DNA of 64,000 nt, from contig NC_061066.1 of NCBI RefSeq assembly GCF_021917145.1, forward strand, positions 9,584,685-9,648,684. The letters are read 5' to 3'. Below, in pieces: positions 2,884-54,153 of the stretch. Source of the DNA: Hypomesus transpacificus. Its lineage: Eukaryota; Chordata; Actinopteri; Osmeriformes; Osmeridae. The position numbers and the translations under genes were made by a program. The first letter of the stretch is position 1. Each line of letters starts with the position of its first letter. The notes beneath the pieces were generated by a model that searched no databases, was not told where the DNA came from, and was given only the letters and a program-made list of their open reading frames with translations.

Positions 2884-5990
<3,107 letters not shown>

Positions 5991-10924: not shown

Positions 10925-13900
10925 TCAGGGCTTGCCTGACAGCAGGCTGTGGAACCAGGAGGTTTGACCTTTGACCTGGTCGTCGGGGTCGGGCAGCAGG
11001 AACTGGGAGGAGGTGACTGAGGTGGGACTTCCCAGGGAGGGGGTCAGGCCCTCCACAGGGGAGTCCATCTTCCAGGAGCACTGGGGCTTGTACCCCCCAA
11101 AGGGCCCCTCTGCCCCAACCTGCTCCTGCTCCACAGAGGCCGGGGGCGAGGCCGGGTGCATCTGGGGCCGGTAGCCCCCGAGGGGAGGCTGGGGCTGGGG
11201 GGCCGGGGCAGAGGCCTGGATGCCGGTGTAGGTGACGTCGGTGCGGGCCGAGTCAACCGAGCTGCCCGAGGACGCCGAGGAGTCTGGGAAGTGGGCGGGG
11301 CGTTGCCGCGGCATCCCCTGGTCCACCACCTGGTTGTAGTAGCGGAGGACGGAAGGCTCGTCGGTGTCGGCCGGAGCGCTGCCCTCCTCCTCCTCTTCCT
11401 CGGGCACAGTCACCAGCGCCTCCTTGGAGTCCCACTCTGGCTTCTCCAGGATGTGGACCATGCTGTGAGGAGACGGCTTCAGGTCCAGAGTCCCCTGAAA
11501 CACACACATGACACTTTCTGGCACCAGGACAGTGTGTGTCCCTGGCGGTGTGCCATGAGGTCATGATCCCCATCTTACCTGAGGCATGGACCAATCAACA
11601 GGCAGCTTACCTGAGGCATGGACCAATCACCAGGCAGGCTGGGCTCAGGGATGTCTGGGTAGAAGGCTTTCTTCACCCTGGGACACAGGCAACAACAAAC
11701 AGTCAACAACTGGAATACAAAATACAATAAATCTGCTGAGAATGTGACATGACAGCTTCCTGTTCAGTAATCTGGCTGCCTCACCACTTCCTCTTCCTGT
11801 AGCACAGGGTCGTGACAACAGCCAGGAAGCACGCCATGGTTCCCAGGGCAACCAGGATCTCCAGGATGAGCCAATCAGCTGCCAGAGGAGAAGGCAAGCA
11901 AGCATTCATTCATACTGGTGTGCTGTCCATGAACATTGAGTGTTAACGTACTGTAGGGCTGTAGATAGACCCAGCTAATGCTAACGTACTGTAGGGCTGT
12001 AGATAGACCCAGCTAATGCTAACGTACTGTAGGGCTGTAGATAGACCCAGCTAATGCTAACGTACTGTAGGGCTGTAGATAGACCCAGCTCATGCTAACG
12101 TACTGTAGGGATCCAGAGAGATATAGGCCGGGGTTCCACCGTCCTCCCCGGCAGAGTTGTACGACTTGACGGTGAACTTGTATGAGCCAACAGGGAGCTT
12201 GGTCACTGTGTAGTTCCTCTGGCTTGGGTCAGTGATGTTGGCTGGAGAGAGGAGAAGGGAGTGTGAAATAACTGGACTATCCAATAACCAAGGGAAAGAC
12301 AGCATAGCCTAGTCTAGGCCCTACCTATCAGAGAGAACCAGATAGTCCTACCTATAAGAGGGAGGCTGGAGATAGTCCTACCTATCAGAGAGAGTCTGGA
12401 GACAGTCCTACCTATCAGAGAGAGCCTGGAGACAGTCCTACCTATCAGAGAGAGTCTGGAGACAGTCCTACCTATCAGAGAGAGTCTGGAGACAGTCCTA
12501 CATATCAGAGAGAGTCTGGAGACAGTCCTACCTATCAGAGAGTCTGGAGACAGTCCTACCATCAGAGAGAGTCTGGAGACAGTCCTACCTATCAGAGAGA
12601 GTCTGGAGACAGTCCTACCTATCAGAGAGAGTCTGGAGACAGTCCTACCTATCAGAGAGAGTCTGGAGACAGTCCTACCTATCAGAGAGTCTGGAGACAG
12701 TCCTACCTATCAGAGTCTGGAGACAGTCCTACCTATCAGAGAGAGTCTGGAGACAGTCCTACCTATCAGAGAGAGTCTGGAGACAGTCCTACCTATCAGA
12801 GAGAGTCTGGAGACAGTCTTACCTATCAGAGAGAGTCTGGAGGCGTTGGCCATGTAGACTCGGTACCCCAGCAGGAACCCCCTCTGGTGCTCCAGAAGAA
12901 CCTCCTCCCAGGTCAGCAGCACGCCAGAGCCCTGCTGATTGGACGAAACGTGGGGGGACGACCTGGAGGGGGCTGGGGGAGGAGCCACAGGTACCACAAC
13001 GATGAAACACAGTAGATCTGGACCTTTACCCTTAGAACAGTCCGTGTGTGTGTGTCAGACCTACCCTGCTCCTGCATGTAGGCCTCCCAGCGCTGCTGCA
13101 GGGTGGGGAGTTGGGACGGGCAGGAGTACAGAGAGAAGGTGTATCTCACTCCTGGCTGGAACCAGTCTGGGCACCGGGCAAAACACACACACCACGCAGT
13201 CAGTATACACAGCTATCTAGAGATCGCTCAATCTATTATAGATATAAGAAGTAGACTGACTTAAATTTGATTCAAAATATTAAAAAAATAGAAGAATTTA
13301 AAAGAATACATGAAATATAATTTCATTTATAATGTAATAAAAATAAGTAAACAAAGTTTTGAAAATAACATTTTGAACGGTTGAAAGACTGAGATATTCA
13401 CTTTGCTCACAACCCTGTGCCTCTCAGGACTGCAGCCTCTCACTACTGCAGCCTCTCAGTACTGCAGCCTCTCACTACTGCAGCCTCTCACTACTGCAGC
13501 CTCTCAGTACTGCAGCCTCTCAGTACTGCAGCCTCTCAGTACTGCAGCCTCTCAGTACTGGCCCTGACAGCCATAGTGTTCCTACTGTATGTGCATCACT
13601 GAGGGGCATCATCTTTTGTGATGAATGCTGTTACTGCTTGACTAATTTCGTACATGAACATGGATTTAGGCTTTGAAACATTTTGATCAGTGATCCTGTC
13701 GGGTGTTATCTGGCTTATTTGACACACTGGTGTTCAGCATTTTAGCTATGCATCGTACATGGCTTTGTGGAGTTTTTTTAGGGCTGAATTAGGTTGGTGG
13801 TGTTGCCCCGAGAGGTAGCAACGTTAGCCAGGCAGGTTTTGCACAATACTTGACACTGCGCAGCATCTTTTTTACAGGCAAAATTGGCAAAGTGTCTGTA

Positions 13901-16301
13901 GTGTCAGGTTCTGTTGAGCCTGAGGCCATCGTACAGGTCAAGGTCAAGTGTAACGTGCAAAATTGATCCTTCATCTGCAAACTGCGTTACTCTCACGTGT
14001 CTCGGGACCAGAGTAAAATCGCAGCCCTTGCGATTACAAGATCTCGTTTTGTCACATCACAATATTATCGCAAATGCAATTAATCGTTCAGCCTGACAGG
14101 ATGGTGGTGTTGGTGGGGTACCTGTCTCTGACAGGATGGTGGTGTTGGTGGGGTACCTGTCTCTGACAGGATGGTGGTGTTGGTGGGGTACCTGTCTCTG
14201 ACAGGATGGTGGTGTTGGTGGGGTACCTGTCTCTGACAGGATGGTGGTGTTGGTGGGGTACCTGTCTCTGACAGGATGGTGGTGTTGGTGGGGTACCTGT
14301 CTCTGACAGGATGGTGGTGTTGGTGGGGTACCTGTCTCTGACAGGATGGTGGTGTTGGTGGGGTACCTGTCTCTGACAGGATGGTGGTGTTGGTGGGGTA
14401 CCTGTCTCTGACAGGATGGTGGTGTTGGTGGGGTACCTGTCTCTGACAGGATGGTGGTGTTGGTGGGGTACCTGTCTCTGACAGGATGGTGGTGTTGGTG
14501 GGGTACCTGTCTCTGACAGGATGGTGGTGTTGGTGGGGTACCTGTCTCTGACAGGATGGTGGTGTTGGTGGGGTACCTGTCTCTGACAGGATGGTGGTGT
14601 TGGTGGGGTACCTGTCTCTGACAGGATGGTGGTGTTGGTGGGGTACCTGTCTCTGACAGGATGGTGGTGTTGGTGGGGTACCTGTCTCTGACAGGATGGT
14701 GGTGTTGGTGGGGTACCTGTCTCTGACAGGATGGTGGTGTTGGTGGGGTACCTGTCTCTGACAGGATGGTGGTGTTGGTGGGGTACCTGTCTCTGACAGG
14801 ATGGTGGTGTTGGTGGGGTACCTGTCTCTGACAGGATGGTGGTGTTGGTGGGGTACCTGTCTCTGACAGGATGGTGGTGTTGGTGGGGTACCTGTCTCTG
14901 ACAGGATGGTGGTGTTGGTGGGGTACCTGTCTCTGACAGGATGGTGGTGTTGGTGGCTCCAGCAGGAAGGCGGGTCCAGTCCAGGGCACAGGGCTGTGAG
15001 CAGCTGGTGTTGTGCCACTCCAGGAGGTAGTCACAGCTGGTGTTGTGCCACTCCAGGAGGTAGTCACAGCTGGTGTTGTGTGGGGGCATCCAGGACAGGG
15101 GGAAACCCGCCTGGGTGGCCTCAGCCCGGAACACAGCCACCTCCCCATCTGAGGACACCACAGGGTCAGATGCCAGGTCACTAACATCATCAGATCACTG
15201 GTCTATCCTCTCTACCCTGTCCTTCCCTCATTCCTCTCCTCTCAACAGCTCTCTCCCTTTCCTACACCTCTCCTTCCCCCTCCTCTCTCCCTCCCCTCCT
15301 CACCTCCCAGGTAGTCAGGGATCACCTCTCCTTCCCCCTCCTCTCTCCCTCCCCTCCTCACCTCCCAGGTAGTCAGGGATCACCTCTCCTTCCCCCTCCT
15401 CTCTCCCTCCCCTCCTCACCTCCCAGGTAGTCAGGGATCCCCAGGGTGGACGGGGGGGACACCCCGGCAGCGTTGGTGGCGGTGATGGTGACCCTGACCC
15501 CAGCGGCGGGGCTGCCCAGGGAGAAGGCCTGGCTGTGGGTTCTCTGGGGCAGGACGTGGCTCCTCTGGCGGTTCTCCTCCGAGCTCCACAGGGTCACCTC
15601 GTAGCTGCTCAGCTGGCCATGGCTCTCTCTCTTGGTCAGGGGCTGGAGGGGGTTAGGAGAGGTTCACTGGCGTGTTACACCCCCCAGCACACACACACAC
15701 ACACAGAGACACACACAGACACAGCAGGACTCACCTTCCAGATGATGCGTCCAGTGCTGTTGCTGTCCATCCACACCCACGCATCAGGAGTGTCAGGGCC
15801 TAGGACACACACACGCCGTCACACACCGTCACACATTGTACCCTCCACACACACACCGTCACACATTGTACCCCTCCACACACACACCATCACAAGGCTC
15901 AGTCACATAGCACACTCCCTCTCATGCTCTCTCTACTCTCCACCCCCTTACGGTCCATGCTGGTGGTGAAGGTGAGGTAGAGGCTCCAGTCGCTCCACTT
16001 CCAGAAGTTCCTCAGGGAGCCACAGCGGATCCTGCAGCGGTATTCCTCATCAGGCTGCAGCCCTGTGATCACGGCGGTGTCCAGACCTGCCCCTGTGAAC
16101 GTTTGCTGAACACACACACACACAGGCATAAACATATACACACACACACACACAGGCATAAACATACACACAGGCATAAACATACACACACACACACACA
16201 CAGGCATAAACATACACACACACACACAGGCATAAACATACACACACACACACACACAGGCATAAACATACACACACACACACACACACACACAGGCATA
16301 A

Positions 16302-16350
<49 letters not shown>

Positions 16351-16355
16351 CATAA

Positions 16356-16398
<43 letters not shown>

Positions 16399-18823
16399 CA
16401 TAAACATACATACACACACACACACACACATAAACACACACACACACACAGGCATCAAGACACACAGAGAACATTGTTTTCTTATAGGCTTTTAAGGTTT
16501 TAAGGTCTACACTCACTTATGTAACACTATCTTTCTCTGAAACCCACAGCCCCCCCCCCCCCTCACCGTGCTGGGGTGCCAGTTAGAGATGAGCTCCACC
16601 TGGCAGGTGAGTTGTAGGGAGGCGTAGGTCTGGTTAGGCCACGCCCACTGCAGAGTGGCATTCCAGGGGTGGATCACCGTGGCGACCAAGCTCGACGCCG
16701 ACAACGGACGCACTGGAACCAAAGAGCCAATCAGCAGGTACAAAACAAGAACCAATGAACAGACACGTGTTGAGTGTGTGTATATGGTATATGTAAGTTT
16801 TATACAGTGTGTGTGTGTGTGTGTACCTCTGTGGCTCAGCTCGGCGCTGTCATTCAGCCTGGCCCGGCCCAGCTGGTTCCAGGCCTCCAGGGTCCAGCTG
16901 CCCTCCCAGTTCTCCAACCCACACAGCATCCCACCTGCCAGGCTGCAGTTCCTGGGGAAGGAGAGGGAAGGAGAGGGGAAGATGGAGAGGATGATAGTGG
17001 ATGATGGAGGGGAGGGTGCGAGGAGGAAGGGAAGATGGAGAGGATGATAGTGGATGATGGAGGGGATAAGAGGTGTGTCCTACCTGCCATTGAGGGCGTA
17101 ATGGGTCCTGCGCTTGGTGCCGATCAGGTGTGTGTCTGGTCCGGCGCTCCACTGGCATTCTGCTGACCGCAGGTCATGAGTCTCACACAGCAGGTCACTG
17201 GGCTGGGGGGGGTCTGGGGGTCAGGGGTCAGAGGTCAGGGGTCACACCAGTCTGTCTGGAGTGTGTGTGATGATACAGGAGAGTGGTGTGTGTACGATTG
17301 ACTTCCTTACATCCCACAAACATGACGGCTCCCGTGGTAACTACTGTTTTGGAGTTGCTACACACCACATTGGTGCCAGAGGAAGCGGAGGGGCCCTGAT
17401 TGGTCCGGGTGGTAGCATAGCTCCGTCTACTCAGGCGGGTGATGTCCATGTCCCTGGCATGATAGGTGATCTTGCCAAAGCTGTCGCCCTCGGCGATGAT
17501 GCAGCAGAAGGTGGTGTTGCTGCCCACTTCGACCACTCGGCTCGATGGATACATCTGGGCCTGGGCGTTGCTAGGAACGTCCATACCTTGGAGACAGGAC
17601 CAGGAGTTCTGTTCATTAACCCATCTAACCCTCTCTCCATCCCTCCATCTAACCCTCTCTCCATCCCTCCATCTAACCCTCTATTCATCCCTCCATCTAA
17701 CCCTCTCTCCATCCCTCCATCTATCCCTCTCTCCATCTAACCCTCTCTCCATCCCTCCATCTATCCCTCTATTCCTCTCTCCATCTATCCCTCTCTTAAT
17801 TCCTCTCCTTCCCTCACCCTCCCTCTCACCTTCTCCTCCTCACTCCCCCCTACCTGCCAGGATCTCAGGACTGCTCCAGTTGCTGAGCTCGTCAGCGGAG
17901 CGCGCTCGCACGGTGACTGACAGGGACGTGCACTCCAGCGGTTCCTCTGAGGTCCAGTTCCACCGGAACCTTCCGGCCGCGTCTGGCTTTGCCTCCACCG
18001 TCTCCTGGAGACAGAATCACAACACGACCTTGACGATTGGCTGGTGGCCAGGATGCTGCTCTAGATCTAGTACTGTTCACCTACTGTTCTAGATACTGAT
18101 CTAGTCATGGTTCCTGTTTTAGTACTATTAAAATTCAGATTGGGCTATTGCAGTCATTCAGATGGAGAAACATCATGTACTGGAATTGAAATACATTTAG
18201 ACACTAGCGACCTGTGTTATTATTAGATTAACATTAATTCAGAAAATTCCAGAAAGATAGGGTTCAGCTAGACGAGACAAACATGATGCTTATTTTGTTA
18301 ACTTTTGTTTGTTGTTTGTGAAAAAATTACTAAATGTTAACCCCCCCCTCCACTCCCCCCCTTACGTTGAACACTGTGACCATGAACTCAGAGCGCTGGA
18401 TCAGGATGTCGTGTTGGGGGGCGTCCCCCCCCCCCCAGGTGATGGAGAGGCGCTGGGCGTCTCGGTCTGCCTCCAGGACCACCTGCTGGGGGGCCGCCGG
18501 CGGGCCTGGGGGGGCACAGGAACCACACTGGTCATGGGCTATCTTCTAAATAGTTGATGAATCTTGGTCGTTGAATCTAAACTGTGCATCACTGGTGTAC
18601 ACAACTCCCTACACAACGTGTGTCTGTCTGTCTGTCTGTCTGTGTGTCATGGTAGGAGAGAGACTAAACAGGTTTCTCCTTCACACTGTGAATTGCCCTC
18701 AGGGGTGAGAGACCGTTTCCATGATAACAGCCTGCAGAGCCGCCCTGCATGTTTGGAGGTCTTACCACTGGCCTGGCATGACGACAGAGACAGCACCAGC
18801 AGGAGGACCAGGTAGTGCTGCAT
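10925..18823 (-). CDS. lifr: Leukemia inhibitory factor receptor-like gp130-family receptor, complete, 17 coding exons, 936 aa
   Basis: Single-pass class I cytokine receptor at the plasma membrane, expected to pair with gp130 and signal through JAK/STAT3. Exons: 18823-18766, 18505-18366, 18004-17854, 17586-17311, 17213-17084, 16951-16827, 16712-16567, 16105-15952, 15799-15735, 15642-15420, 15148-14927, 13166-13065, 12972-12823, 12241-12104, 11878-11785, 11677-11611, 11494-10925. They total 2811 nt with all phases consistent. Order: signal peptide (MQHYLVLLLVLSLSS), one half cytokine-binding module with NWSS, Ig domain (about 117-210), a full cytokine-binding module ending WSDWS (about 382), three FN3 domains, TM helix (about 697-717) and box 1 (FYPDIPEPSLPG). 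The tail has three YxxQ STAT3 motifs (YYNQ, YRPQ, YKPQ). The C-terminus (GSPTSVTSSQFLLPDPDD, then WFHSLLSGKP) is LIFR-like. Having half a module before the Ig domain resembles OSMR, so a pre-duplication LIFR/OSMR-type fish gene is possible. Confidence 0.9.
11579..11643 (-). repeat. Tandemly duplicated 5' splice site of lifr exon 16 (32 bp, 2 copies)
   Basis: The last bases of exon 16 and its donor (TCCATGCCTCAG then GTAAG) occur twice, 32 bp apart. The upstream donor (exon end 11611) keeps the frame into exon 17. Using the second (exon end 11579) would add 32 nt and shift the frame. Confidence 0.9.
11945..12110 (-). repeat. 38-bp array carrying the lifr exon 14 splice donor, 5 copies
   Basis: Each unit contains CCCTACA followed by the donor GTACGTTAGCAT, identical to the exon 14 end at 12104. 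Copies sit at exactly 38-bp steps (CTGTAGGG at 11951, 11989, 12027, 12065 and 12103). Reading on past the true donor meets a stop within a few codons. Confidence 0.95.
12335..12840 (-). repeat. 30-bp array carrying the lifr exon 13 splice donor, about 17 copies
   Basis: The unit contains the coding end of exon 13 (CTCTCTCTGATAG) and a GTAGG donor; the true exon end is 12823 with GTAAG. The four donors nearest the exon are spaced exactly 30 bp apart, so using donors 2-4 would insert 10, 20 or 30 in-frame residues. Further copies of 26 and 28 bp break the regular frame. Confidence 0.95.
13410..13562. repeat. 16-bp minisatellite in lifr intron 12/11 region
   Basis: About nine copies of CTGCAGCCTCTCAGTA and its C/G variant. 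Confidence 0.9.
14092..14947 (-). repeat. 35-bp array carrying the lifr exon 11 splice donor, 24 virtually perfect copies
   Basis: The unit, read on the minus strand, ends the exon (CATCCTGTCAGAGACAG) and begins the intron (GTACCCCACC). There are 24 donors at exact 35-bp steps from 14120 to 14925 (plus-strand AC of each donor), and I see no base differences between units. All three minus-strand frames are open across the array because the unit contains no stop in any frame; this produces spurious long Pro/Thr/His ORFs. The donor nearest the exon (exon end 14927) restores the frame with exon 12. Confidence 0.97.
15001..15066 (-). repeat. In-frame 33-bp coding duplication in lifr exon 11
   Basis: Two consecutive identical 33-bp units encode DYLLEWHNTSC twice before CSQPCALDW. 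Mammalian LIFR as remembered has only one such segment (CDYVIKWCNSS). The duplication adds an extra Cys and an NTS glycosylation sequon to an FN3 domain. Confidence 0.9.
15285..15440 (-). repeat. 58-bp array carrying the lifr exon 10 splice donor, 3 copies
   Basis: The block CACCTCCCAGGTAGTCAGGG (reverse of the exon 10 end and donor) starts at 15301, 15359 and 15417. The copy at 15417 is the one joined to the exon (exon end 15420). The rest of the unit is polypyrimidine on the plus strand. Confidence 0.95.
16110..16455. repeat. (CA)n microsatellite with GGCATAAACATA interruptions, lifr intron 7
   Basis: Compound repeat: CA runs of 5-25 units separated by about eleven copies of AGGCATAAACATA. 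It ends close to the exon 8 acceptor at 16105. Confidence 0.97.
17610..17815. repeat. Pyrimidine-rich repeat in lifr intron 3
   Basis: About eight copies of CCATCTAACCCTCTCTCCATC with variants, between the exon 3 donor and exon 4 acceptor. Confidence 0.85.
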
Positions 18824-18905
18824 GCTGGAGGAGCTCAGATACTTCAGGAGGAGCTGGTCCGTGTGACTCAGCAGGTCAGCAGGACTGAGCAGCGAGAGAG
18901 TGACC
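18824..18905 (-). other. lifr: lifr 5' UTR portion of the first coding exon
   Basis: Upstream of the ATG the sequence runs to a good minus-strand acceptor (polypyrimidine then TTCAG) at 18906-18908, so the start codon exon has about 82 nt of 5' leader and at least one more 5' exon. Confidence 0.55.
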
Positions 18906-32533: not shown

Positions 32534-32633
32534 NNNNNNNNNNNNNNNNNNNNNNNNNNNNNNNNNNNNNNNNNNNNNNNNNNNNNNNNNNNNNNNNNNN
32601 NNNNNNNNNNNNNNNNNNNNNNNNNNNNNNNNN
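32534..32633. other. Assembly gap, exactly 100 N
   Basis: A run of exactly 100 N is the conventional placeholder for a join of unknown size. The left side belongs to aacs and the right side to a mid-gene exon of grip1, so the two flanks need not be adjacent in the genome. Confidence 0.99.
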
Positions 32634-35600
32634 CACCATCCCCAGCGTGGACAGTGCTGTGGAGTCCTGGGATGGGTCTGGTCTGGACAATACCTTCACC
32701 AGCCAGGGTAGGGGGGAGAGGGAGGGAGGGAGGGAGGGGCGGGGGGAGGGAGGGAGGGAGAGAGGGAGGGAGGGAGGGAGGGAGGGAGGGGGGGGGGGGG
32801 GAGGGAGGGATTCAATAGAAAATTAGACAGAAGAACAATCTAACAGTGTGTGTGTGTGTGTGTCAGTACCAGGGTTCCAGGCGTCTGGGTACAGCTTCCA
32901 CAGTCATGAATGGCGGAACGCCAAGCCCAGCCACGACAGCCAATCACCTGGCAGCACCCGCCAGAGGAACATCCTACAGGACCTGGGATTGGACAATGAC
33001 TGGGACCGCGCCCCGACCAGCGGGTACGAGAGAGTGTGTGTGTCTGAGTGAGTGTTTAGGTGTGTTAGGGTGTGTGTGTAGTACTGTGTGTGTGTCTGAG
33101 TGAGTGTTTAGGTGTGTTAGGGTGTGTGTAGGACTGTGTGTGTGTCTGAGTGAGTGTTTAGGTGTGTTAGGGTGTGTGTAGTACTGTGTGTGTGTGTAGT
33201 ACTGTGTGTGTGTAGTACTGTGTGTGTGTGTAGTACTGTGTGTGTGTGTGTGTGTGTAGTACTGTGTGTGTGTGTGTGTGTAGTACTGTGTGTGTGTGTG
33301 GATATGATGATTGAAGTAGTTCTCCTACATCTGCAGAGGCTGCACGCTGCCCAGCGGCTTGATAACAGATAGCAGGTGAGGCCAGGCCCTGACCCCTGGT
33401 GACCCCTGGTGACCCCTGGTGACCCCTGGTGACCCCTGGTGACCCCTGACCCCCCCATCTGAACTCTCCCCCTCGTGTCCACAACACTGCAGCCTGAATG
33501 GCGTGTTAATCTCGGTGGTCAAGTGTGCGTCTGAGAATGTGTGTGTGTGTTGATTTGTGTACGTGTATGTATGTGAGTGTGAAAGTGTGTGTGTGTGTTC
33601 CTGGCCTCTTATTAGCTCTTTCTTCCCCTCTGAACTCAGCTCAGTAATGTGTTCCCCACATGTTGAATGCTGATTGGGTGACAGTCCAGATTCCTGCTTG
33701 CTGATTGGGTGATTTGGGTTATTTCCGCTTCCGTATTGGGTGACTGGGCAGATTCCTGCTCTGCTGATTGGTTGACTGTGTGTTGACCTCTGACCTCCCC
33801 AGGTTCACAGTGGGGCATGATGGGACTGAACCAGACCAGGAAGAGAACTTCTGGTCGCAGGCATTGGAGGACCTGGAAACCTGTGGCCAATCAGGAATCC
33901 TGAGAGAGCTGGAGGTAGGAAGCATATACTGGACTACAAACCTCAACGACAAAGAACTACAAATCCCATGTGTATTTGTTCTTGGTTGCATGCGGTCACT
34001 TCCTGGTTGTGTGTAACTCCTCCCTCTCTTTCCAGGAGGAACCAGACAGGGTTTTGAATCAGAGAAACCTGGCCATGCTGGTACTCCTCTCTGCCCTCCT
34101 CCTCTCCTCTACTGCTCTCTCCTCTTCCTCTCCTCTTCCTCTCCTCTCTCTTCTCCTCTCCTCTCCTCTCCTGTCTGCTTGTAGCTGCTTTAATACCTTG
34201 TGTCTGTGCCTCCCCCCTACGGTGGTGCATTCCAGTCCTCCCCCCTCTCCCCCACCACCCTGGCCTGTCTCCACCCTCTCCCCCACCACCCTGGCCTGTC
34301 TCCACCCTCTCCCCCACCACCCTGGCCTGTCTCCACCCTCTCCCCCACCACCCTGGCCTGTCTCCCCCAGCCCAACCCACCCCCCACCTCTGATCTGTGG
34401 AGTGTACCTGGCCATGCCCCCCCCCTCCTTACAGAGTCACATGTCAATCAACCTCCAAACAACATGCTAATGCTTCACAAGCTAACAATGTCAAGGTTAG
34501 CATCATGGAAGCTTTACTGACCACACATAGAGCAATGCTACTTACGACACCTCTGTTGAACTGTGTAATGGCCTGAGTCTAATGCCAAAACAAGGGGCTG
34601 AATGTACCTTGCTGTTTTTGAGGGTGCGTATCATTTAAAGTGTGACATCATATCTTGTTCCAGAAGCACAAACACTAGAATGATGTGACTCAACATGAAT
34701 GTTGTCACAGATGTTGAGGGAATGTTGAGTTATTCTTCAAATGGAAGCTGAGCTAACAATGAGACTGCAACACGTGAGTGGAGGTGAAGAGCAACTAGAC
34801 CAACTGAAACCTGGGTGACCATGGAGATGCATGACACTGCCTCGGTGTCAGCCAATAGAGAAACACCTTGTGCTACAGTTTGAGTGACCTCACTTACAAC
34901 TGTCCAATGGGAACGAGGAGTCGTGTTGCGATGGGCATGGCAGTGTGAATGAAGCATGATGGGAGAGCGGTACTGCAAGGCCTCCTGGGATGTGTAGTTC
35001 CCTGTATTTGTGTGGTTCTGAACTCAGCCACCATCACTTCCTCTTCCTGTCCTGCCTGTTGCAGAGGGAGGAGGTGCTCTGAGGAGGATCTGCATAGTAG
35101 ACCAGCATTTGGCTGCATGACACTGGGTGAAAGAGAAACTAACAATACTTTGTTTTCTTCTCCCCTCCTCTCTCCCCTCCTCTCTCTCCCCCCCCCCCTC
35201 CCCCCCCAGGCCACCATCATGTCAGGCAGCAGCCTCAGTCTAAACCATGAGCTCCCCCCCCGGTCCCAGCTGGGCCGGCAGGCCAGCTTCCAGGAGAGAG
35301 GCTCCAGCAGGGCGGCCCCCAGCCAGGCCGCTCGCTCCAGCACCCTGCCCTCCGACCCCGGACGCAAGGCCTTCGCCCTGAGGAAGATGAGGCAGGAGAT
35401 CTCAGACATCCTGGCTCCGCCCACACCTGTGGAGCTGCACAAGGTAGGGCAGGATGTGTTCAGGCTGGTTCAGGACAGGTGTGTTGTATCCAGGTGAGCG
35501 TGGTTCAGGACAGGTGTGTTGTATCCAGGTGAGCGTGGTTCAGGACAGGTGTGTTGTATCCAGGTGAGCGTGGTTCAGGACAGGTGTGTTGTATCCAGGT

Positions 35601-36567
35601 GAGCGTGGTTCAGGACAGGTGTGTTGTGTCCAGGTGAGCGTGGTTCAGGACGGGTGTGTTGTATCCAGGTGAGCGTGGTTCAGGACAGGTGTGTTGTGTG
35701 CAGGTGAGCGTGGTTCAGGACAGGTGTGTTGTATCCAGGTGAGCGTGGTTCAGGACAGGTGTGTTGTGTGCAGGTGAGCGTGGTTCAGGACAGGTGTGTT
35801 GTATCCAGGTGAGCGTGGTTCAGGACACGTGTGTTGTGTCCAGGTGAGCGTGGTTCAGGACAGGTGTGTTGTGTGCAGGTGAGCGTGGTTCAGGACAGGT
35901 GTGTTGTATCCAGGTGAGCGTGGTTCAGGACAGGTGTGTTGTATCCAGGTGAGCGCGGTTCAGGACAGGTGTGTTGTATCCAGGTGAGCGCGGTTCAGGA
36001 CAGGTGTGTTGTGTGCAGGTGAGCCTGGAGAAGGAGTCGGACCTGGAGGACTTTGGCTTCAGCGTGTCTGACGGCCTCCTGGAGAAGGGTGTGTACGTCA
36101 GCAACCTCCGCCCTGGGGGCCCCGCAGAGCTGGGGGGGCTCAAGTCCTACGACAGGCTGCTACAGGTACACTCACACACACAGATATAACATACACACAG
36201 ACATTCCCCCCTAGACACCACACCCAAGGTAACTGTGCCTCTCCAGATCAACCACGTTCGGACCCGAGACTTCGACTGTTGCCTGGTGGTTCCACTCATT
36301 GCAGAGTCTGGCAACAAGCTGGAGCTGGTGATCAGCAGGGGCCTGGCTTCCGCTCAGCCAGTCTGCGAGCTCCACAACACCCCCGCAGACCTGAGCCACT
36401 CCCTCGCAGACCCCCTGCTGAGCTGGAGCGAGGCTGGGGGGGGAGGGAACCCGCTGGGGGGGACCCGACTGTCCACAGACTCACTGTCTGCTGGCCTGCA
36501 GCTTAACTCGAGGCTGGGGCCGGGGCTGGGGCTGGGGGAGGATAGAGACCCCAATAAGACCTTATAG
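32634..36567 (+). CDS. grip1: Glutamate receptor-interacting protein 1-like, last six exons (5' part missing in the gap)
   Basis: C-terminal third of a synaptic multi-PDZ scaffold that binds AMPA-receptor tails and KIF5. Exons: 32634 (cut by the gap)-32707, 32867-33023, 33803-33914, 35210-35443, 36019-36165, 36247-36567, with phases consistent. Signature residues: [69 protein letters not shown] and PTPVELHK. The last PDZ (PDZ7) has [33 protein letters not shown] and [34 protein letters not shown] and the ending NKTL point to GRIP1 rather than GRIP2. The Gly-rich tail between PDZ7 and the stop is poorly conserved. Confidence 0.9.
32705..32815. repeat. (GGGA)n tract in grip1 intron
   Basis: G/A-only tract of GGGA units with a 13-G run, directly after the donor at 32708. 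Confidence 0.9.
33040..33305. repeat. TG microsatellite with GTAGTACTG punctuations
   Basis: A 63-bp block (about 33043-33180) occurs as roughly two and a half copies, followed by a TG array interrupted by six GTAGTACTG units. A separate 10-bp unit GACCCCTGGT is repeated six times at 33388-33448. Confidence 0.9.
34225..34375. repeat. 30-bp minisatellite, about 4.5 copies, in a grip1 intron
   Basis: Unit CCACCCTCTCCCCCACCACC followed by CTGGCCTGTC. It is preceded by a polypyrimidine TCCTCTCC tract (34080-34175). Confidence 0.9.
35457..36018 (+). repeat. 35-bp array carrying the grip1 PDZ7 exon acceptor, 16 copies
   Basis: Each unit contains CCAGGTGAGC or GCAGGTGAGC. The last copy (AG at 36017-36018) is the true 3' splice site, and the exon itself starts GTGAGC. 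AGs lie at exact 35-bp steps from 35492. CAG/GTGAGC is also an excellent donor consensus, so each unit could be read as either type of splice site. Confidence 0.95.
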
Positions 36568-41073: not shown

Positions 41074-42160
41074 GACTGTCTGACTGTCTGTCTTCCTGCC
41101 TATCTTGTCTGTCTGACTCTGTCTGCCTGTCAGTGTGTGTGTTTGTTTAAGTGTGTAGACAATGCTAGCAGATGCTCTAGGCTTCAAAGGAGGAATAGGG
41201 GTTTAACTGTGTGTGTGTGTGGGTTGTGTGTGTGTGTGTGTGTTTTTGTAGACGGTGCTAGCAGATGCTCTGGGTATCAAAGGAGAGGTGAGGAAGGAGA
41301 GAAGGCTGTTCCTGGTGGGCCAGACCAGAGTTCATCTAGACACAGTGGGAGGACTGGGACACTACATGGAGCTGGAGGTCTGTGTGTGTGTGTCTGTTCC
41401 AGCCTGTGTACCAGTGTGTGGTGTGTGTGTGTGTGGTGTGTCTGTTAGACTGTCTTCCAGCCTGTGTACCAGTGTGTGGTGTGTGTGTGTGTGTGTGTGG
41501 TGTGTCTGTTAGACTGTCTTCCAGCCTGTGTACCAGTGTGTGGTGTGTGTGTGTGTGGTATGTCTGTTAGACTGTCTTCCAGCCTGTGTACCAGTGTGTG
41601 GTGTGTGTGTGGTGTGTCTGTTAGACTGTCTTCCAGCCTGTGTACCAGTGTGTGGTGTGTGTGTGTGTGTGGTGTGTCTGTTAGACTGTCTTCCAGCCTG
41701 TGTACCAGTGTGTGGTGTGTGTGTGTGTGGTATGTCTGTTAGACTGTCTTCCAGCCTGTGTACCAGTGTGTGGTGTGTGTGTGGTATGTCTGTTAGACTG
41801 TCTTCCAGCCTGTGTACCAGTGTGTGGTGTGTGTGTGTGGTGTGTCTGTTAGACTGTCTTCCAGCCTGTGTACCAGTGTGTGGTGTGTGTGTGTGTGGTG
41901 TGTCTGTTAGACTGTCTTCCAGCCTGTGTACCAGTGTGTGGTGTGTGTGTGTGTGTGGTGTGTCTGTTAGACTGTCTTCCAGCCTGTGTACCAGTGTGTG
42001 GTGTGTGTGTGTGTGTGGTGTGCAGGTGGTGATGAGGGAGGACCAGAGCCCTGAGGAGGGGGAGAAGGTGGCGCGAGGCCTGATGGAGCAGCTTGCGGTG
42101 GGGCAGGACAGCCTGGTGACTGGAGCCTACATGGACCTGCTGCTGGAGGCAGCGGCCTAG
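40468..42160 (+). CDS. CYTH-domain protein (CyaB-like), complete, 4 coding exons, 172 aa
   Basis: Small protein of the CYTH superfamily (class IV adenylyl cyclase CyaB/thiamine triphosphatase fold), in which a beta-tunnel binds triphosphate and metal. Coding exons 40468-40623, 40731-40832, 41252-41377 and 42026-42160, all phase 0, give 519 nt. The N-terminal MPSNVEIKARV holds the xExK part of the ExExK signature with Asn in place of the first Glu. Further conserved blocks are LKLRNL, GQLIFYERPD, VRKERRLFLVGQTRVHLDTV and GLGHYMELEVV, and the C-terminal AYMDLLL. It resembles the CyaB-like branch, not ThTPA. Substrate and function in fish are unknown. The start ATG at 40468 lies one base after an AG, so the upstream leader is spliced. 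Confidence 0.8.
40850..41115. repeat. (GTCT)n microsatellite, CYTH gene intron 3
   Basis: Tetranucleotide GTCT/TCTG array of about 260 bp, purest at 40995-41080. Confidence 0.96.
41152..41203 (+). pseudogene. Decayed partial duplicate of CYTH exon 3 (41252) start
   Basis: TAGACAATGCTAGCAGATGC then TCTAGGCTTCAAAGGAGGA matches the real acceptor and exon start (TAGACGGTGCTAGCAGATGC, TCTGGGTATCAAAGGAGAG) at most positions, about 95 bp upstream. It keeps the AG and codes TMLADALGFKGGIGV, then stops; no donor follows. Confidence 0.8.
41385..42022 (+). repeat. About 54-63-bp array in the last CYTH intron, about 11 copies
   Basis: Unit contains TGTTAGACTGTCTTCCAGCC then TGTGTACCAGTGTGTG and a TG run of variable length. 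Each unit has a CTTCCAG acceptor-like site. Copies differ mainly in TG number. Confidence 0.95.
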
Positions 42161-51695: not shown

Positions 51696-52306
51696 TCACA
51701 CAGACAATGTGTGTGTGTCTCTGTGTCTTTCTAAGTGTGTATCTTTGTGTGTGTGTGTAGCCCCAGTGGCAAGGTGCAGCAGGAGCCCAGCCCCCCCCCC
51801 CTCCCCCCCCAGCCCGCGGAAGAAGAGGAGGCTGTACAGCGCGGTGCCCGGACGCACCTTCATCGTGACGCGCTCACACACACCCCAGGGCACCGGGGAG
51901 ATAAACCTGCACCGAGGGGAGAGGGTCAAAGGTCAGCCCACTTCCCTCTGTCCAATCAGACATCATCTTGGCTCTGCTTGTCCAATCACACTTCACCTGT
52001 ATGGCTAGAAGGCTGCTACTTTACGACTGCACACAACAGTCCTGCCTCACACTCCTCCCTCTAATCTCTGTCTTTATCCTATCATGCTCTTCATCTCACT
52101 TTCTCTTCTCTGTCCCCCCCTCCCCCAGTCCTGAGTATAGGAGAAGGGGGGTTCTGGGAAGGGTCTGTGAAGGGCAGGACCGGATGGTTCCCTGCTGACT
52201 GTGTAGAGGAGGTCCAGATGAGACAGTATGACCCACGTCTAGGTAACACACACTCACACACGTATACACACTCACACACACACACTCACACACACTCTCA
52301 CACACA

Positions 52307-52345
<39 letters not shown>

Positions 52346-54153
52346 ATACACACTCACACACACACACACTCTTCAGTGGGAGCCCTGGGGGATGTGTGTG
52401 TTGAGCAGAGACCAGAGAGGACCGCACCAAGAGGCTGTTCAGACACTACACTGTAGGATCCTACGACAACTACAGCTCTTACAGGTACCTCACACACCCG
52501 CACACACACACACCTCCTACAGGTACCACACACACCCACACACACACAGAGGTCCTACAGGAAAGAGCAGATCTATAGTGTGTGTACCTGGTGTGTCTCC
52601 ATGATACAGCGACTATGTGATCGAGGAGAAGAGCGCTGTGCTGCAGAAGAGAGACAGCGAAGGGTTTGGCTTTGTTCTGCGAGGAGCTAAAGGTGAGAGG
52701 AAGGGGAGGGGGGGGGAGAAGGGGGGGGGAAGGAGGAGGGGAGGGGGGGTGAGGGGAGGGGAGGGGTTAGAGAACAGCAGTGATTCAGAGGGGGGATAGA
52801 GAGAGAAGAGAAAGTGAGAAAGTGAGAAAGGGATGGAGGGATGGAGAAAAGGAAAAGAGAACGAGGAAAGATTGTGTGAGAGAAGGAGATGGAAAGAAAG
52901 AAAGAAAGAAAGAAAGAGAGAATAGAAAGGAGAGAGAAGAGAGGAGTGCATCTGGACTTTGTGGCATCCCCATCTATACGCCCACAAGTAACCATGGCAA
53001 CAGCAGACAGTCAAGAGCTCTCTGTCAACTCAGTCAGCATCAACTGTGTGTACGTGTGTGTGTCTGTGTGTGTGTACCTGTGTGTGTGTACCTGTGTGTG
53101 TACCTGTGTATGTGTACCTGTGTGTGTACCTGTGTGTGTGTCTGTGTGCGTGTACCTGTGTGTGTGTACCTGTGCGTGTACCTGTGTGTGTGTACCTGTG
53201 TGTGTACCTGTGTGTGTGTCTGTGTGCGTGTACCTGTGTGTGTGTCTGTGTGCGTGTACCTGTGTGTGTGTACCTGTGTGTGTACCTGTGTGCGTGTACC
53301 TGTGTGTGTGTACCTGTGTGTGTACCTGTGTGTGTGTACCTGTGTGTGTGTCTGTGTGTGTGTCTGTGTGTGTGTACCTGTGTGTGTGTCTGTGTGTGTG
53401 TACCTGTGTGTGTACCTGTGTGTGTGTACCTGTGTGTGTACCTGTGTGTGTACCTGTGTGTGTGTACCTGTGTGTGTACCTGTGTGTGTACCTGTGTGTG
53501 TGTACCTGTGTGTGTGTACCTGTGTGTGTGTCTGTGTGTGTGTACCTGTGTGTGTGTCTGTGTGTGTGTACCTGTGTGTGTACCTGTGTGTGTACCTGTG
53601 TGTGTGTACCTGTGTGTGTACCTGTGTGTGTGTACCTGTGTGTGTACCTGTGTGTGTACCTGTGTGTGTGTACCTGTGTGTGTACCTGTGTGTGTGTACC
53701 TGTGTGTGTGTACCTGTGTGTGTGTACCTGTGTGTGTACCTGTGTGTGTGTACCTGTGTGTGTGTACCTGTGTGTGTGTGTGTAGCCGAGACCCCCATCG
53801 AGGAGTTTGCCCCCACCCCTGCGTTCCCTGCCCTGCAGTACCTGGAGTCTGTTGACCTGGAGGGCGTGGCCTGGAGGGCAGGGCTTAGGACTGGGGACTT
53901 CCTGATTGAGGTAAGGCCCCGCCCTCCATCATCACACCAGATATTCAGCCTGTTGAAGTTGCTGACAATGGGGCCCTGTGTGTGTGTGTGTGTGTGTGTG
54001 TGGGAACAGGTGAACGGGGTGGATGTGGTGAAGGTGGGCCACAGACAGGTGGTGAGTCTAATCAGACAGGGGGGCAGTCAGCTGCTCATGAAGGTGGTGT
54101 CTGTCTCCCGCAAACCTGACGCACACCTGCTGCGCAAGAAAGGTACGCTCCCA

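Follow-up and report, generated by a model that had tools for sequence, protein, structure and literature searches.

Minisatellites that span an exon–intron junction have been described before but are rare. The 'mirage' of the amphioxus Adh3 gene is reportedly the subject of a 2002 paper by Canestro, and Turri is said to have found in 1995 that a minisatellite of human IFI6 (6-16/G1P3) yields multiple splice donors. Here we describe a locus of the fish Hypomesus transpacificus at which repeats of this kind are unusually concentrated. It is a stretch of 64,000 nucleotides (the window; NC_061066.1, positions 9,584,685 to 9,648,684 of the forward strand) that contains lifr, the gene of the leukemia inhibitory factor receptor, and it was analysed together with 10 kb of flank on each side, the flanks being chosen blind to their content. 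In total, ten donor-spanning arrays were found in four genes (five in lifr, three in TYMP, one in SHANK and one in a small gene that we take to be chemokine-like), each with at least one further donor carrying no more than two mismatches.

In amphioxus, mirages are minisatellites lying over exon–intron boundaries of the Adh3 and globin genes, with splicing seemingly undisturbed (PMC3087553). As in the mirages described there, the boundary at the present locus is tandemly repeated in units of about 10–160 bp, the splice signals are kept in many copies and the gene still codes; unlike them, the arrays lie in a vertebrate and in several genes of one 84 kb block. Moreover, that report gives both donor and acceptor kinds for amphioxus, whereas we found ten donor arrays and one acceptor array. 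The likeness to human IFI6 is that the unit carries the 5′ splice site and that one exon has many donors. IFI6, however, is a single gene whose transcripts use downstream units (PMC4526556), whereas the present cases are known from sequence alone. In human segmental duplications, internal tandem repeats at exon–intron boundaries, with units of 30 bp on average repeated four times, alter splicing potential and are reported to create novel introns (PMC2812944), whereas no new intron was seen here. The model of Rogers explains intron gain through tandem duplication of AGGT segments (PMC4974935); duplication around AG|GT is common to both, but here existing introns were lengthened and none was created. 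Among the papers listed by our literature searches, none was seen to describe minisatellites across a splice junction in a fish, although one of them, on myostatin-2 of a sea bream (PMC3045353), might be relevant; an earthworm paper (PMC12783039) and a killifish paper on tandem repeats (PMC2688266) added nothing decisive. To call the phenomenon new, as a sequence-only reading of the window did for a shared mechanism, goes too far, since junction-spanning minisatellites are already published (PMC3087553, PMC2812944).

The lifr model has a stop-free frame when the exon-proximal donors are spliced, and the best match of the 747-residue LIFR part encoded by exons 1–16 in the PDB was human LIFR (8d6a, E = 7.5e-75). 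In five of the 16 introns (10, 11, 13, 14 and 16) a minisatellite unit detected by Tandem Repeats Finder (TRF) covers both the exon end and the donor GT of this minus-strand gene, so that all five multiplied 5′ splice sites of the sequence-only reading were recovered. The gene and its arrays, with percentage matches as given by TRF, are as follows.

10926..18905, minus strand: lifr, 17 exons annotated, AG/GT at 16 of 16 introns
15265..15439, minus strand: exon 10 donor array, 58 bp x 3.0, 100% match, exon end 15420
14093..14956, minus strand: exon 11 donor array, 35 bp x 24.7, 100% match, exon end 14927
12320..12842, minus strand: exon 13 donor array, 30 bp x 17.8, 94% match, exon end 12823
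11944..12110, minus strand: exon 14 donor array, 38 bp x 4.4, 99% match, exon end 12104
11574..11637, minus strand: exon 16 donor duplication, 32 bp x 2.0, 96% match, exon end 11611
15001..15080, minus strand: repeat inside exon 11, 33 bp x 2.4, in frame, with an 11-residue gap there against human LIFR

When a copy was counted as a donor if it had no more than two mismatches to the first, exons 10, 11, 13, 14 and 16 had 3, 24, 17, 5 and 2 full copies, respectively, the first included; the exonic nucleotides inside the arrays were 20, 30, 20, 7 and 27 in the same order. The exon 11 array repeats CAG|GTACCC 24 times, the five donors of exon 14 read CTACA|GTACGT and the duplicated donor of exon 16 is CAG|GTAAG. 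At exon 13 the first donor, GTAAGA, scored 9.4 bits and most later copies, GTAGGA, scored 6.8 bits with a donor matrix that, like the codon table used, is approximate. A 108-base piece of the 35 bp array had a single match in the genome, at its own locus. The five unit lengths are all different and the unit sequences look different by eye, which makes it reasonable to regard the arrays as having arisen separately, as had been proposed from the sequence. In addition, the 35 bp array breaks off in mid-unit at a sequence at about 13600–14092; this looks to us like a common fish hAT-type element, which may have truncated the array.

The alignment to human LIFR held no extra unit at the exon 11/12 junction, while similarity was low past exon 13, where the later multiplied junctions are less well tested. 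Since the exon-proximal donors give an uninterrupted LIFR, the extra copies sit in introns. This agrees with the earlier view that the junction was multiplied and no intron created, in that the first copies give the conserved protein. Intron gain was accordingly rejected: LIFR and TYMP, when read from the first copies, show no exonic loss against their human counterparts (TYMP gap-free, LIFR at exon 11/12).

The phenomenon was wider than lifr. Four donor-spanning arrays lie in the 20 kb of flanks, three of them in TYMP and one, of 76 bp, at exon 1 of the chemokine-like gene, for whose protein no Pfam match was found. In the window, one further array, which the sequence-only reading had passed over, lies in SHANK.

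52472..52561, plus strand: SHANK donor array, 38 bp x 2.4, exon end 52484

In TYMP, three of six introns have a donor-spanning array, at exons 4, 5 and 6 (36, 10 and 40 bp, respectively, the last being microsatellite-type under the classing rule used). Translated from the first copies, TYMP has an unbroken frame and aligned without gaps to human TYMP (1uou, E = 1e-116) over all three junctions, with 331 of the 359 residues submitted being covered. The SHANK protein was likewise gap-free against SHANK3 (5izu) across its multiplied junction. At exons 5 and 6 of TYMP (flank coordinates 1928–2028 and 2295–2375) the intron side resembles the exon end (CCCTGG; CACCAC), and it is possible that such sequence seeded duplication via short homology. 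Separately, the reading frame of SHANK as modelled is broken at 51761–51931, perhaps at a poly-C tract, and a stop falls at residue 540, upstream of the duplicated donor; a short intron may have been missed there, or the assembly may be wrong in length.

We compared the placement of arrays with a null in which each array was collapsed to one unit and placed independently and uniformly in and across intron edges. The sample comprised 58 introns of eight annotated genes, touched by 67 arrays, and an array near both intron ends was scored at the acceptor. The results revealed 10 donor-spanning arrays against 5.6 expected (P = 0.045) and 1 acceptor-spanning array against 5.6 expected (P = 0.017), with P = 0.0056 for the difference between donors and acceptors. 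For the minisatellite class only, donor-spanning arrays numbered 9 against 4.6 (P = 0.03). Furthermore, 11 arrays started within 10 nt inside a donor (3.5 expected), 15 ended within 9 nt before an acceptor (3.2 expected) and 30 lay at other intron positions (49.1 expected). One minisatellite, in frame, and four microsatellite-type arrays were found entirely within annotated exons. The only acceptor-spanning array in annotated introns belongs to a GRIP-like gene whose PDZ domain was assigned by Pfam and whose model is partial.

35466..36028, plus strand: GRIP-like PDZ gene acceptor array, 35 bp x 16, exon start 36019

Most units of this array contain CAG|GTGAGC, which reads as an acceptor and as a good donor alike.

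The locus is rich in tandem repeats, which cover 27.7% of the window and 31% and 11% of the two flanks, as against 8%, 4% and 5% in the three stretches used for comparison. Because 27.7% of the window consists of tandem repeats, arrays near junctions are common here anyway. The contig is 10.24 Mb long and the window lies 0.59–0.66 Mb from its end; this position was rejected as the sole cause of array richness, an equally end-near stretch of another contig, C1, having only 5.4% tandem repeats.

On balance, we consider it probable, with a good deal of room for doubt, that the arrays are mirage-type minisatellites which arose by chance tandem duplication at an array-rich locus and were filtered by what splicing tolerates. 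The unit spans an exon–intron boundary in the ten donor arrays and in the GRIP-like acceptor array, and the copies keep AG/GT signals in the ten donor arrays. Short tandem duplications would be frequent in short introns and roughly blind to the exact junction, and the arrays would grow by slippage or unequal exchange. In favour of this reading, minisatellites numbered 3.7 per kb of unique intron (39 in 10,454 bp) against 1.0 per kb outside annotated genes, a class that may take in unannotated genes (41 in 40,100 bp; P = 3e-8), and they were densest, at 6.1 per kb, in introns with less than 150 unique bp. The weaker later donors of lifr exon 13, the small number of arrays inside exons and, with lifr left out, a donor count near the expectation point the same way. 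A duplication crossing a donor would be tolerated because the copy next to the exon still supplies its end and a functional GT, with further copies all landing in the intron, as the conserved protein obtained from first copies shows. Duplications across an acceptor or within an exon would mostly be removed, as the shortage of acceptor-spanning arrays suggests, because additional copies would end up in the mRNA or interfere with the choice of acceptor; with donor cases surviving and the others removed, the remainder would look like multiplied donors. A donor count at or just over the expected value, a shortage at acceptors and very few arrays inside exons together make the pattern to be expected from selection on splicing. 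Splicing probably makes little use of the additional donors; any use of them would add peptides to the protein or cut it short.

Several results weigh against chance duplication filtered by splicing. With lifr included, donors were above expectation, and lifr alone had five donor-spanning minisatellites against 1.2 expected (P = 0.003, an after-the-fact value, lifr having been chosen for its striking look). When lifr was left out, the acceptor deficit weakened (1 against 4.3 expected, P = 0.055), the donor–acceptor difference gave P = 0.12 and a binomial test of 5 to 1 gave P = 0.22. Finally, arrays crowd introns and halt at splice sites beyond random expectation, so that placement is not simply uniform. 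Concerning donors themselves, the excess of junction-spanning units over random placement that the sequence-only reading had implied was mild in the 58 local introns with lifr, and without it the donor count lay near the expectation (5 against 4.3, P = 0.44; minisatellite class, 4 against 3.3, P = 0.43). For minisatellites of the 64-kb window, the corresponding figures were 6 against 3.35 (P = 0.11), the four genes other than lifr contributing 1 against 2.1.

An alternative is that donors are mutational hot spots, at which co-transcriptional breaks, R-loops or pausing of U1 or polymerase seed duplications, acceptors being spared by a donor-linked process. The proportion of affected introns in lifr and TYMP and the overall donor excess speak for it, and so does array density, which was 3.65-fold higher in introns of annotated genes than outside. 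The donor excess, however, nearly vanished without lifr, and array ends before acceptors clustered at least as strongly as starts inside donors.

Genome-wide motif counts, in which exact tandem pairs 14–44 bases apart were expressed as a share of single occurrences, point both ways. Donor motif CAGGTGAG formed pairs in 3859 of 31,012 occurrences (12.4%) and donor motif CAGGTAAG in 469 of 14,515 (3.2%); the non-donor motifs were AGACTGAG (1555 of 24,573, 6.3%), its reverse GAGTCAGA (1484 of 25,149, 5.9%), GAGTGGAC (396 of 11,369, 3.5%) and GAATGGAC, the reverse of CAGGTAAG (84 of 10,748, 0.8%). Pooled, the two donor motifs reached 4,328 of 45,527 (9.5%) against 3,519 of 71,839 (4.9%) for the other four, a difference driven by CAGGTGAG, but motif by motif the donor rates fell above and below the non-donor rates. 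The test is coarse, most occurrences not being splice sites and pairs being counted repeatedly within one array; by eye, the distinct loci on contig C1 numbered 10 for CAGGTGAG, 2 for CAGGTAAG, 10 for AGACTGAG and 2 for GAATGGAC. A strong donor enrichment read from 469 pairs of CAGGTAAG against 84 of GAATGGAC was dropped: the counts for AGACTGAG and its reverse expose GAATGGAC as a low outlier, and the claim was therefore withdrawn. The donor-like content of other minisatellite units was about that of their own shuffles (mean percentiles 0.57, 0.44, 0.51 and 0.56 for 46, 23, 40 and 16 units), in a test of little power, as the six known donor units themselves averaged only percentile 0.60. In 250 kb of contigs C1 and C2 no clear donor-spanning array was seen near coding-like segments, where genes have no exon-by-exon annotation, so that this is no test.

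The shared donor-aimed mechanism suggested by the sequence-only reading thus found no support in the counts without lifr, in the clustering at acceptors or in the motif rates, and we judge donor hot spots unlikely, although a donor-targeted mutation mechanism is possible. A broader form, in which exon–intron edges, above all the 5′ splice sites of short introns in transcribed genes, seed tandem duplication here and perhaps elsewhere in the genome, so that 10 of the 58 introns, or roughly one in six, have a multiplied donor, appears similarly doubtful. If it were true, a duplication source linked to transcription or splicing, acting together with the tolerance of splicing for surplus donors, would account both for the excess at donors and for the shortage at acceptors.

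A less likely explanation still, and one we regard as quite improbable, is that the arrays were retained for function, their copy number forming a ladder of alternative donors for LIFR isoforms. At exon 13, splicing from any of the next three donors would leave the frame intact, with 10 more residues for each copy (GRTVSRLSLI-type inserts). At exon 14, all four downstream donors would give a stop 4 codons past the junction, before the transmembrane exon, and hence a soluble receptor. Human IFI6 employs two downstream repeat units as donors (PMC4526556). However, most downstream donors tried at exons 10 and 11 would shift the frame and reach a stop, the single later donor of exon 16 would also shift it, and only one of the five lifr arrays has a unit length divisible by 3. 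TYMP and SHANK, moreover, behave alike although they have no such isoform logic. An assembly or consensus artefact, with repeats collapsed or inflated at hard-to-read junctions, is very improbable: the 24 identical 35 bp copies are striking and a 100-N gap lies in the window at 32534–32633, but the units are distinct, several arrays have a diverged first copy, spliced LIFR and TYMP both read through without a stop, and the same behaviour recurs in ten cases spread over four genes.

Neighbouring genes also carry arrays that stop close to exons. In several introns of znf367, the CYTH-domain gene and SHANK, the array ends 3–8 bases before the exon.

2884..5989, minus strand: znf367 (a name assigned by eye), with arrays in all four introns, ending 3–8 nt short of the acceptor

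Introns 2 and 4 of znf367 (3147–5051) and intron 3 of the CYTH-domain gene (41397–42022) are almost completely occupied by arrays, which halt 4–8 nt before the exon.

With natural exon ends that carry between 2 and 24 almost identical donors, the locus offers ready-made tests of how the spliceosome chooses among equal 5′ splice sites. The ten-to-one asymmetry of donors over acceptors is a possible trace of splicing tolerance. Should a complete count reveal a genuine excess at donors, germline transcription or splicing would be tied to the birth of minisatellites; should it reveal none, the locus would be a dense vertebrate example of amphioxus-style mirages.

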